DNA of 64,000 nt from an uncultured Pseudoxanthomonas sp. (lineage in GTDB: Bacteria > Pseudomonadota > Gammaproteobacteria > Xanthomonadales > Xanthomonadaceae): contig NZ_CAMPJD010000005.1 of NCBI RefSeq assembly GCF_946886695.1, positions 1 through 64,000 on the forward strand. The letters run 5' to 3'. A program made the position numbers and the translations under genes. This document shows, piece after piece, positions 31,918 through 37,762 of this stretch. Positions within the stretch are counted from its first letter, which is position 1. Each line of letters opens with the position of its first letter. The notes beneath the pieces are model-generated. The model saw only the letters and a list, made by a program, of their open reading frames with translations, searched no databases and was not told the DNA's origin.

Positions 31918-33321
31918 TCAGCCCGATCCGAGGCCGGGGATGGCGGTGATGGCGTCCGGATCGAAGCCGGCGAGCTCGGCGAAATGTCGACCGCGTGCCA
32001 CGTAGTCCCGGTATTGCCCGAAGCTCGGTGCACCGGGCGACAGCAGCACCACGCCCCCGTCGCGCAATGCCTCACGTGCGGTCGACATCGCGTCCGGCAG
32101 CGTCTCGACGCCAATCAGCCTGAACCCCGCCTCGCGCGCCACAGGAGCGAGCAACGCGTGGATGCGCGGGCCGTTGGCGCCCATCGTGATGATGGTGGCC
32201 GGCGCTTCGTGGCGCATGTGCGCCGCGAAATCGGACCAGTCCACCCCCCGGTCATGCCCGCCGATCAGCAGCGCGATGCGGCGTCCCGCGAAACACTCGA
32301 GCGCGGCGAGCGTGGCGTGCGGCGTGGTGCTGATCGAATCGTTGACCCAGGTGATACCGTCCCGTGTGCCCATCGCCTGTAGGCGGTTGGGCAACGGGCG
32401 GAACGATTGCGCATGCGCGGCCAGTGGCAACGCGTCGATGCCGCGCGCCTCCAATGCCGTCAGCACCGCGCACAGGTTGCTGCGGTTGTGGCGCCCCGGC
32501 AGGGGCAGCGGCCGGGTATCCATCACGAACAGGTCGTCGCGGTACAGATCGTCCCCGCGCAGGTGCCAGCCATAGGGTTGGTTGAACCAGCGTACTTCGC
32601 TGCGCGGCAGCTCGAGCGCGGCCAGGCGCGGATCGGCCGCGTTGAGTACAGCGATGCGGGGCTGCGCAGCGGTGACGAGCTGCAGCTTGTCCTCGATGTA
32701 ACGCGCTTCGCTGCCGTGCCAGTCCAGGTGCTCGGGGAACAGGTTCAGCACGATCGCCACATCCGGACGCGCACCGCTGGCCGCGACATCGCCGGTCTGG
32801 TAACTGGACAGCTCAATGGCCCACTCGTCCGGCGCAGGCTGCGGATCCAGCACTTCCAGCATCGGCAGGCCGATGTTGCCGGCCAGGACCGTGCGCTTTC
32901 CCGCCGCGCGCAGCAGATGCGCGAGCAGCGAGGTCGTCGTGCTCTTGCCCTTGGTCCCGGTGACGCAAAACGTGTGCGCCACCACGCCGTCGTCACCGGC
33001 GTGCTCGGCGAACCACAGGCCGGTGCCGCCAATGAAGCGCGTCCCCGACGTCGCCGCCGACAGCGCCATCGGGGTATTGGGGCTGATGCCCGGCGATTTG
33101 ATGACGATCCCGAAGGCCGACAGCCGCTCCTCCGTCGCCTGCGTTTCGATGGAGAGATACGCATCGCCCAGCGCGGCGGCCTCGACTGCTTCCGCGTCGC
33201 TGCAGAACAGCGTCAATGGCAGCGACGGCAGCCGCGACCGTACGGCAAGATGGGCAGCGCGACCTTCGCGCCCCCAGCCCCACAGCGCAACACGTCGACC
33301 CTCAAGCTGCGAAATTCGCAC
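31918..33321 (-). CDS. murD2: UDP-MurNAc-L-Ala--L-Glu ligase MurD2
   Basis: This Mur ligase, paralogous to MurD, is known from Xanthomonas to add L-glutamate, not D-glutamate, to UDP-MurNAc-L-Ala. From a GTG at 33321 it has 467 residues. An N-terminal domain with WGWGREG (about 14-20) is followed by the ATP P-loop [11 protein letters not shown] (121-131), a central ligase block [13 protein letters not shown], and a C-terminal domain with GGHDRGVDW. The GTG start overlaps the murL stop by 20 bases; longer frames would extend into murL. The ligase partner MurL then inverts the glutamate, so the product is the ordinary D-Glu intermediate. The assignment as MurD2 rather than MurD rests on the adjacent murL. 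Confidence 0.87.
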
Positions 33322-35148: not shown

Positions 35149-37762
35149 CGCCGGGCACTCCTTCGATCACGTCTTCCACCGGCAGCCCACGCAGGTTGTA
35201 GTGGCTGGCCATCACGTAGCCGTAGGCGCCCGCATCGGAGAACAGCAGCACGTCGCCTTCGGCCGTCGCCGACGCCAGCTTGCGGCGCTTGCCGAAGATG
35301 TCGCTCGACTCGCAGATCGGACCGACCACGTCGAACGGCTCCTGCTCCGGGTCATCCAGGCGCGACAGGTTGGCCACGTCGTGCCAGGCGTCGTACAGCG
35401 CAGGGCGTATCAACGTGTGCATGCCGGCATCGCTGCCGACGCGCCGGATACCCAGCTTCTCGACGACCTGCGTCACTTGCGCAAGCAGCACACCCGCCTC
35501 GGCCACGAGGTAGCGCCCCGGTTCGATCACCAGTTGGTAGGCCGGATAGGCCGCCTTGATCGCCGAGAGACCCTTACCCCACGCGGCCAGATCGAACGGC
35601 TCGTCGCCCTCGGCATAGGGAATCGGCAGACCGCCGCCGATGTCGATGGTCTCGATGGTGCCTATCTGATCCGCCAGGCCGCCGAGTTCGTCGGCGATCT
35701 GGTTCCAGTGCTGGGGGCTTTCCACGCCACTGCCGAGGTGGGCATGCAGGCCGGTGATGCGCACATCCAGCGCACGCGCGGCAATGAGGAACGTTTCCAG
35801 CTTGGCCAGTGGCAGGCCGAACTTCGAAGTCTTGCCGCCGGTCTTCACCTTGTCGTGATGGCCGTCGCCGCGACCCAGGTCCACGCGCAACCACAGGCGG
35901 CGGCCGCGGAACACCTCAGGCCATTGCTCCAGCGCCTCGACGTTGTCCAAGGTGACGTTGATGCCGCGTTCCAGCGCGAAGGCGTACTCGGCGCGCGGCG
36001 CGAAGCTCGGGGTGAACAGCACGCGATCCATCGGCAGCGATGGCGCCACATCGAACACGCGCTCCAGTTCGCCACGCGAGACGCATTCCAGGCCGAAGCC
36101 TTCTTCCACCAGCGTGCGCAGGATGGCCGGATGCGAATTCGCCTTGATCGCGAAGAAGCGACGATCGACCGCCGCGATGCCGGCCAGCGCGCGGGCGCGG
36201 GCGCGCACGATGTCGAGGTTGTAGGCGTAGCGCGGCGTGCCGGCCTGCGCCAGCGACAGCAAGTGCTCACGCGCGGCCGGCGCGCTCCACCAGCGCACGC
36301 CGCGGTGGCGGACGGCGCCGTTGATCTCGCGCCAGCTCGGCCCGAATACGCTGGCTTCATCGGTCGGCATCGCGCCACTGTCGATCAGCGCCTCGTGCAG
36401 CACGGGCAACAGGCCCTCCGCGTCCGCTTCATCGATCACGAACGTCAGGTTCAGGTCGTTCGACGACTGCGAGATCAGATGCACGCGTTCACGGCCGAAC
36501 ATCGCCCACACGTCCGACAGCTTGTGCAGCAGCGACCGCATGCCACGGCCCACCAGGGTGATCGCCGTGCACGGTGCGATCACCTTCACCCGGCAGATCT
36601 CGGCTAGGTCGGCAGACAGCGCGGCCAGCACGTCGGTGTTGACCAGGTTTTCGCTCGGATCGAGCGACACGGTGACGTTGGTCTCCGACGAACCGATCAG
36701 GTCCACCGAAAGGCCATGCTTCTTGAAGCGCGCGAACACGTCCGCCAGGAAGCCCACCTGCTGCCACATGCCGATGCCTTCCATCGACACCAGCACGATG
36801 CCGTTGCGGCGGCTGACCGCTTTCACACCGGGCACCGTGATCGCGCTTCCGTCGATGGTGGTGCCGGGAAGGTCGGGGCGTTCGGTATCCAGGATCGCCA
36901 TCGCCACGCCAGCATCGCGGCACGGCTTGATCGAGCGCGGATGCAGCACCTTGGCGCCTGTGGTCGCGATTTCCTGTGCCTCGTAGTAGTCCAGCCGCGT
37001 CAGCAGGCGTGCATCGGGCACTTCGCGCGGATTGGCGCTGAACATGCCGGGCACGTCGGTCCATATCTCCACGCGCTGCGCGCCGAGCAGCGCACCGAAG
37101 TACGCCGCCGACGTGTCCGAGCCTCCGCGACCGAGGATGGCGGTACCGCCATCGGCATGCCGCGAGATGAAGCCCTGCGTCAGCAGCAAGCGGCTGGACT
37201 GCCCCGCGAACGCGCGGCGCCAGTCCTGGTCGGGCGCGGTATTGCACGACACCGACAGCCGCTGCGCCCACGGGCTCTGGTTGGGCAGGAAGTTCGCCTG
37301 CAGCCAGTGGCGCGCATCGACCCAACCGAAGTCCAGCCCCTGCGCGCGCAGGTAGGCCACGCCCAGCGTGGAGGACAGCAGTTCGCCCTGCCCCAGTACC
37401 TCGGCTTGCCAGTCCAGCGTGCGGCTGGCCGCGCGCGGATCGGTCAGCAGGTTGCGCAACCCCGCGAGGCGCTCGCCCAGCACGGTGTCCGCATCGAGTT
37501 CCAGTTCGGCGACGAACTCGCGATGGCGCTGTTCCAGCTTTGCCACGCGCTCCGCGCCGTCCGTCGCCCCATCGGCAATCGCGGTCAGTTCATTGGTGAC
37601 GCCGGACAGGGCCGACACCACCACCAGGATGCGGGCATCACTTTCTTCCGCGCGTTTTTTCGCCAGCGTGCCAATCGTGTTCCAACGATGGCGACGCGAC
37701 ACCGAGGTGCCGCCAAACTTGAGGACAATCCAACGATCAGACGCGGGGGTGGCAGAGGGCAT
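35132..37762 (-). CDS. lysAC: Bifunctional aspartate kinase / diaminopimelate decarboxylase
   Basis: This fused enzyme performs the first and last steps of the lysine branch: ATP-dependent phosphorylation of aspartate and decarboxylation of meso-diaminopimelate. The 876 residues have the aspartokinase domain first (about 1-300, KFGGTSVS at 15-22 and GRGGSDTSA) with ACT-type regulatory segments to about 460. The LysA domain follows (about 470-870), with PLP Lys540 in FFAIKANSHP. The fusion is typical of Xanthomonadaceae. The ATG at 37762 is preferred; the in-frame upstream part lies in the divergent phzF promoter. It heads the lysAC-membrane protein-murL-murD2 operon. Confidence 0.96.
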   Translation of the reverse strand: MPSATPASDRWIVLKFGGTSVSRRHRWNTIGTLAKKRAEESDARILVVVSALSGVTNELTAIADGATDGAERVAKLEQRHREFVAELELDADTVLGERLAGLRNLLTDPRAASRTLDWQAEVLGQGELLSSTLGVAYLRAQGLDFGWVDARHWLQANFLPNQSPWAQRLSVSCNTAPDQDWRRAFAGQSSRLLLTQGFISRHADGGTAILGRGGSDTSAAYFGALLGAQRVEIWTDVPGMFSANPREVPDARLLTRLDYYEAQEIATTGAKVLHPRSIKPCRDAGVAMAILDTERPDLPGTTIDGSAITVPGVKAVSRRNGIVLVSMEGIGMWQQVGFLADVFARFKKHGLSVDLIGSSETNVTVSLDPSENLVNTDVLAALSADLAEICRVKVIAPCTAITLVGRGMRSLLHKLSDVWAMFGRERVHLISQSSNDLNLTFVIDEADAEGLLPVLHEALIDSGAMPTDEASVFGPSWREINGAVRHRGVRWWSAPAAREHLLSLAQAGTPRYAYNLDIVRARARALAGIAAVDRRFFAIKANSHPAILRTLVEEGFGLECVSRGELERVFDVAPSLPMDRVLFTPSFAPRAEYAFALERGINVTLDNVEALEQWPEVFRGRRLWLRVDLGRGDGHHDKVKTGGKTSKFGLPLAKLETFLIAARALDVRITGLHAHLGSGVESPQHWNQIADELGGLADQIGTIETIDIGGGLPIPYAEGDEPFDLAAWGKGLSAIKAAYPAYQLVIEPGRYLVAEAGVLLAQVTQVVEKLGIRRVGSDAGMHTLIRPALYDAWHDVANLSRLDDPEQEPFDVVGPICESSDIFGKRRKLASATAEGDVLLFSDAGAYGYVMASHYNLRGLPVEDVIEGVPGDVAAG

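Follow-up and report, generated by a model that had tools for sequence, protein, structure and literature searches.

Genetic organization of the lysAC-murL-murD2 locus

The stretch of DNA analyzed here, which we call the window, comprises 64,000 nucleotides (nt) of a contig from an uncultured Pseudoxanthomonas sp., and on its minus strand lysAC, a gene for a membrane protein that we call M, murL and murD2 form one overlapping chain. The first gene (35132..37762, minus strand) encodes a fused aspartate kinase / diaminopimelate decarboxylase of 876 amino acids (aa), whose residues 4-867 match NF006515 over its full length and above the cut-off (1398 bits, cut-off 802). M (34654..35148, minus strand) is a predicted four-helix membrane protein of 164 aa, with relatives in other genomes and no known family. 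It is followed by murL (33302..34657, minus strand), encoding a MurL of 451 aa (NF041275, 831.8 bits, cut-off 700), and by murD2 (31918..33321, minus strand), encoding a MurD2 of 467 aa (TIGR01087, 300.6 bits, cut-off 211.95). As the preliminary description of this DNA had it, all four genes overlap or abut: by 17 nt between lysAC and M (35132..35148, minus strand), by the 4 nt ATGA between the M stop and the murL start (34654..34657, minus strand) and by 20 nt between murL and murD2. All 99 loci compared, which come from two families of the order, have lysAC, murL and murD2 in this sequence, so that the chain is not a product of chance; 76 of them belong to the family of the window, and the 23 of the second family were chosen by hand among its matches. 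From the comparisons below, M is probably an optional membrane-protein gene placed at the start of murL, where it would relay the translation of murL and would take no part in the chemistry of glutamate.

The L-Glu route of peptidoglycan synthesis

Since TIGR01087 cannot separate MurD2 from MurD, we checked the residues that decide which isomer of glutamate (Glu) is used. Residues D182, K348, A414 and L416 of Escherichia coli MurD align to E197, R358, P432 and F434 of the window's MurD2, the first two of which carry the same numbers as in Xanthomonas oryzae when the start is set at the GTG at 33321; the residues reported for X. oryzae MurD2 are E197, R358, P433 and F435 (PMC8788868). MurL was matched in 288 of 299 genomes of the order, above the NF041275 cut-off in 167, and above that cut-off in all 38 congeners (genomes of the nearest genus). 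No murI exceeded the TIGR00067 cut-off in any of these 38 congeners; weaker matches were present in 27, and the one scanned, in G301, is an asp_race amino-acid racemase. In the nearest genome, G001, there was no PF01177 match, the single murD match above cut-off adjoins murL, and the dcw cluster reads murE-murF-mraY-ftsW-murG-murC, with no murD between mraY and ftsW. A D-amino-acid transaminase reached the TIGR01121 cut-off of 277 bits in none of the 38 congeners, all of which gave weaker matches (the best at 135.6 bits). The presence of MurL, the residues of MurD2, the lack of above-cut-off murI and transaminase among the congeners and the lack of a dcw murD in G001 make it very likely that the L-Glu route is operating here, in agreement with earlier publications on the genus. 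The MurD2-MurL route proposed in the preliminary description is supported by the window's own enzymes; the check that it named, on murI and canonical murD, covered relatives of the window, with murI sought in the 38 congeners and canonical murD in G001.

Pseudoxanthomonas is listed among the published carriers of the MurD2-MurL route (PMC8788868). The window resembles the route of X. oryzae (Feng et al. 2017, via PMC8788868 and PMC5808125) in the MurL family, the four L-Glu residues of MurD2, the adjoining murL and murD2 and, going by the relatives searched, the murI that was not found, and its enzymes show no difference from it. The membrane protein, lysAC and the overlaps go unmentioned in the passages of these accounts that were covered (PMC8788868, PMC5808125).

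Some genomes of the order depart from this picture. G127 (L055:1333-2223, L094), which is of the window's family, has a murI above cut-off (208.8 against 146.65 bits) alongside murL and murD2, and its route is possibly in transition, or murI possibly serves another purpose. G020 and G120 have murI above cut-off without a MurL match, and likely use the standard route. G310 carries murL on each of two contigs (L201, L204) in an assembly that is 89% complete with 7% contamination, and is perhaps a mixed bin.

Regarding lysAC, the LysA half of the fusion drains diaminopimelate to lysine, and LysAC therefore does not simply supply the precursor pool, as had been supposed; it would both feed and drain the diaminopimelate/lysine branch.

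Distribution of M

A profile of M gave matches in 16 of the 299 genomes of the order, and a wider one in 18 of the 38 congeners; every one of these matches, 16 and 18 respectively, lies directly upstream of murL. The search scored 12 candidates per genome in the larger set and up to 97 in the congeners. The earlier statement that M belongs at this place agrees with this result, no profile match having been found away from murL with 12 candidates per genome scored in the 299-genome set.

M is absent between lysAC and murL in 57 of the 76 loci of the family, counting the different open reading frame (ORF) of L099 as no M, and in 20 of the 38 congeners, all of which have MurL. In these 20, lysAC and murL overlap directly in 15, are separated by a short gap in 4 and show an odd frame in 1 (L205, of G314). 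Three genomes of the family with split murL matches (G092, G171 and G289) were left out of the locus set, and some counts treat L099 and L075 separately. Because relatives without M keep MurL, M is not needed for the route, and we rejected it as a required part of the pathway. The preliminary description had looked for a role of M in this pathway and had named its absence beside murL in related genomes as counting against one; absence at this frequency, in both sets, does not support that role.

A milder version is that M is an accessory of peptidoglycan precursor synthesis where it is present, tethering MurL and MurD2 to the membrane near MraY or tuning the flux between LysAC and MurL. M was found only beside murL in the profile searches, inside an overlapping chain, and it evolves under purifying selection, with a ratio of nonsynonymous to synonymous substitution rates (dN/dS) of 0.07-0.44 in 15 pairs within allele classes; moreover, near its C-terminus it has a conserved Arg-rich CRRYLRR, probably on the cytoplasmic side, as a possible binding site for enzymes or nucleotide sugars. 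Against this stand the many loci and congeners just mentioned that have the same enzymes and lack M, and the 98% identity of MurL between the window and G001 at a place where M is 34% identical. In addition, recombinant MurD2 and MurL carry out both steps in vitro, and the covered part of that account names no third protein (PMC8788868). On balance we regard an accessory role as unlikely.

Two M-region loci have peculiarities of their own. At the lysAC-murL junction of Luteimonas aquatica (L099:4374-4850) there is a 158-aa hydrophobic ORF for which no relatives were found, with a guanine-plus-cytosine (GC) content of 57% against 71-72% in lysAC and murL. A profile comparison did not support it as an M homologue (probability 1.4%), and the junction may be open to repeated insertion of small membrane genes. 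In L075 (G244, g38), the usual stop of lysAC is apparently missing, and the gene extends about 31 codons over the M start, with a gap of 351 compared with 444 in its sister.

Start sites and ribosome-site strength

Many genomes without M have a lysAC that ends in E-(D/E)-V-(I/L)-D or similar; here the D codon together with the G that follows it provides the ATG of murL, 8 nt upstream of where the lysAC stop ends. It is M that begins at this ATG, preceded by the same codons of lysAC, in g2, g38 (Xanthomonas) and g51 (presumably Xanthomonas of the translucens group). Thus the M-less locus L129 reads GAG GAC GTG ATC GAT GAC TGA, with the murL ATG at GAT|G, and the Xanthomonas locus L074 reads GAA GAG GTG ATC GAT GCG CCC GCA GGC TGA, with the M ATG at the matching place. 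The -17/+4 overlap arrangement seen in the window was present in 30 of 31 M loci.

The strength of each ribosome site was taken as the energy of pairing between the stretch before the start and the tail of the 16S rRNA (anti-Shine-Dalgarno pairing). The second copies L073, L063, L185, L186, L187, L189 and L190 were removed before the locus-class counts and the two trees of M and its flanks, and L073 and L063 were dropped from the tree of the M clade. Starts of M had a mean of -9.1 (31 loci) and starts of murL directly overlapping lysAC a mean of -9.4 (37 loci, with the script favouring starts at -8, -4 or -1). The means were -4.1 for murL after M (32 loci) and -3.8 for murL after the short remnants described below (12 loci), random sites giving -4.2 with a standard deviation of 2.7. 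The difference between murL in direct overlap and murL after M is significant (p = 7e-10), and the murL site behind M is of background strength. In the window, a Shine-Dalgarno-like AAGGAG within lysAC (35158..35163, minus strand) would serve M, with a duplex energy of -8.5 for the stretch before its start; the stretch upstream of the murL start, which lies in the ATGA overlap, gives -5.0, about as random sites do.

Remnants and conservation of the reading frame

Outside the genus g14, which was counted apart, the M-less loci of the M clade that have a gap between lysAC and murL have it divisible by 3 in 12 of 12 cases. The remnant class was defined as gaps of 60-200 divisible by 3, which excludes L070 and L084; these lie outside the M clade and have a gap of 76, the only positive gaps above 20 so left out. 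Seven gap sizes occur among the 12 loci (66, 69, 84, 87, 90, 144 and 189), and if independent the chance of seven in-frame sizes would be about 5e-4, or (1/3)^7. In 8 of the 12 loci, and likewise in G325, an ORF begins at the position of M and ends on the ATGA of murL. Remnants of 35 and 69 codons hold their length at a dN/dS of 0.64-0.99 (6 pairs).

These remnants bring in another explanation, namely that M is a near-neutral passenger whose sole kept property is an open frame between lysAC and murL. Many relatives lack M altogether, the remnants just described keep frame and length at the dN/dS given, and the dN/dS of M is high compared with that of its neighbours, all of which speaks for a passenger. 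Against it, full-length M has a dN/dS well under 1, and P140, R150, R151, L153 and R154 are invariant among 76 M sequences, outside the gene overlaps. Part of the conservation at the ends of M is due to overlap, as with Glu6, which in the usual arrangement is the lysAC stop TGA and the next G read in the frame of M; the five residues named are not of this kind. We therefore hold a mere passenger to be very unlikely.

Regarding g14, in six of its loci (L092, L095, L102-L104 and L112) lysAC overlaps the beginning of murL by about 100 nt, in a different frame, and these loci share ACCGGATACACC before the murL ATG, with a weak ribosome site.

Selection on M and exchange of its alleles

Of the 15 within-class pairs mentioned before, 11 have an M dN/dS of 0.25-0.36; the neighbour genes have 0.03-0.23. 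Three more distant pairs gave 0.40-0.55, at near-saturated dS, and in 17 of the 18 pairs compared M was above each of its neighbours.

Between the window and G001, LysAC, MurL and MurD2 are 97.6, 98.2 and 94.4% identical, and M only 34.4%. Between the window and G320, the values are 98.2, 97.8 and 94.2% for the same three proteins and 98.2% for M. At the DNA level, the tract of divergence from G001 (34658..35220, minus strand), which we read as a replacement of the M allele, is sharply bounded: in steps of 100 bases, the identity is 92% before it, 42-46% in its core at about 35220-34700 and above 90% again from the start of murL, the flanks being mostly 91-100% identical. In G001, the GC content of M is 59% compared with 67% in its flanks. 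A second case is that of MAG Gammapro3 (a metagenome-assembled genome) and Root630, with identities of 96% for LysAC, 96% for MurL, 93% for MurD2 and 37% for M. Root630 and G323 share another allele class of M, and their flanks group with those of MAG Gammapro3. In an approximately unbiased (AU) test, the M alignment rejected the flank tree (p = 3e-159), and the flank data rejected the M tree too. Judging from these alignments, M is swapped between species as whole alleles, and the M and flank trees could be reconciled by two or three such events inside the genus.

One might ask whether the contrast between the window and G001 is an artefact of assembly or contamination with no swap behind it. 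However, G320 carries the window's M at 98.2% with similar flanks, Root630 and G323 show the same kind of discordance with flanks that go with MAG Gammapro3, and in both the window and G001 M has an open frame, linked in the same manner to lysAC and murL. An artefact is, in our judgment, hardly credible.

The higher dN/dS together with the exchange of whole alleles makes it probable that M has to deal, at the envelope, with a partner or antagonist that itself changes. M would be an inner-membrane protein serving itself and not the Glu step, exchanged as something at the envelope changes.

Identity of M

Neither family nor structure nor defence libraries yielded a usable name for M. The window's M had no NCBIfam match, and its best Pfam match, DUF4153, scored 14.1 bits, below the cut-off of 27. 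Among the 76 M members, no Pfam family matched more than 6 (E <= 0.1), one unnamed PHROGs family matched 5 (best E 5e-4) and PADLOC gave DrmC in 1 (E 0.007). A profile search of the PDB found nothing below E 0.1 for M, and a fold search with the first, poor, model of two found nothing at E <= 0.001. Both structure models have four long helices, so that the four helices ascribed to M earlier fit the two of them, at low confidence in each case (mean predicted local distance difference test scores, pLDDT, of 61.6 and 61.7). The named relatives of M in the protein search belong to Pseudoxanthomonas and Xanthomonas and are annotated mostly as hypothetical, membrane or transmembrane proteins, with a few stray names; in g51, M has 150 aa, as in X. 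cerealis. Nothing on M was found in the literature, within openly licensed papers.

As for the surroundings of the chain, lysAC itself is without a clear Shine-Dalgarno site (-0.6), and two tandem overlapping ORFs similar to each other (291 and 304 aa, 37850-39633, plus strand), presumably PhzF-like, are divergent from it.

A possible translational relay

The gene order, the shared start, the weak murL site, the kept frame, the losses and the allele swap are documented by the comparisons of sequence presented above, and the relay that they suggest would operate as follows. In the absence of M, murL usually begins at the ATG on the last codons of lysAC, with a strong ribosome site. When M is present, that site starts M, and murL would be reached only at the ATGA stop of M; the likely mechanism is a translation relay from lysAC to M to murL by termination and re-initiation. 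With M lost, loci outside g14 usually keep a short in-frame ORF, which would act as the relay. A stronger proposal is that M captured the start codon of the essential murL together with its ribosome site, which would make the translation of murL dependent on M, allow the loss of M only by in-frame deletion and not by frameshift, and leave its coding part free to diversify and to be swapped between species in response to phages or rivals that act on the envelope. This extended scenario is conceivable, and we put it forward tentatively, as rather doubtful in its full form.

Several observations weigh against M as an optional relay. The 18 loci of g14, which lie inside the M clade, have no M and do not keep the frame, 4 of their 9 positive gap sizes being divisible by 3, and their murL ribosome site is equally weak, with a mean of -3.6; coupling therefore may not be needed, or works otherwise. 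The seven gap sizes are not certainly seven events, and some may share events. A looser test, which accepted any ORF linking the two genes, was passed by 24 of 26 loci, when shuffled gaps would give 19.0; this is close to chance, and we therefore rested the relay on the strict frame, the shared start and the ribosome-site results. The weak pairing before murL is hard to read, 43% of random sites reaching -4.5 or lower. The exact shared ATG occurs only in g2, g38 and g51, the M start lying a few codons further along lysAC in the window's clade, and L115 has no start codon at -17. As to the position of M, the profile search missed three g51 copies (L069, L071 and L079) that were found by position, so copies away from murL may exist. 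Finally, in the pair L082-L083, M evolves no faster than murL or murD2.

The proposed relay resembles the translational coupling via ATGA overlaps of bacterial operons in general in the 4-nt ATGA, the downstream site of background strength and the upstream frame that is kept. It differs in that here an optional gene occupies the usual start of the downstream gene, and in that frame-keeping short ORFs persist after the loss. M also recalls allele-swapping envelope genes and small membrane immunity proteins, in its sharp replacement between near-identical flanks, its deep divergence and its small four-helix form. Unlike those, it has no toxin gene between lysAC and murL and no usable family match, and it sits in an operon for cell-wall precursors.

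Implications

The L-Glu route has been proposed as a narrow-spectrum drug target (PMC8788868), and its chemistry is already known. M lies beside murL at every profile match and yet is dispensable for the route, so that guilt by association would mislead here. If the relay is true, a simple knock-out of M would be expected to have polar effects on murL, and direct overlap, full insert and frame-keeping remnant would make up a natural series for how overlapping genes lock together.

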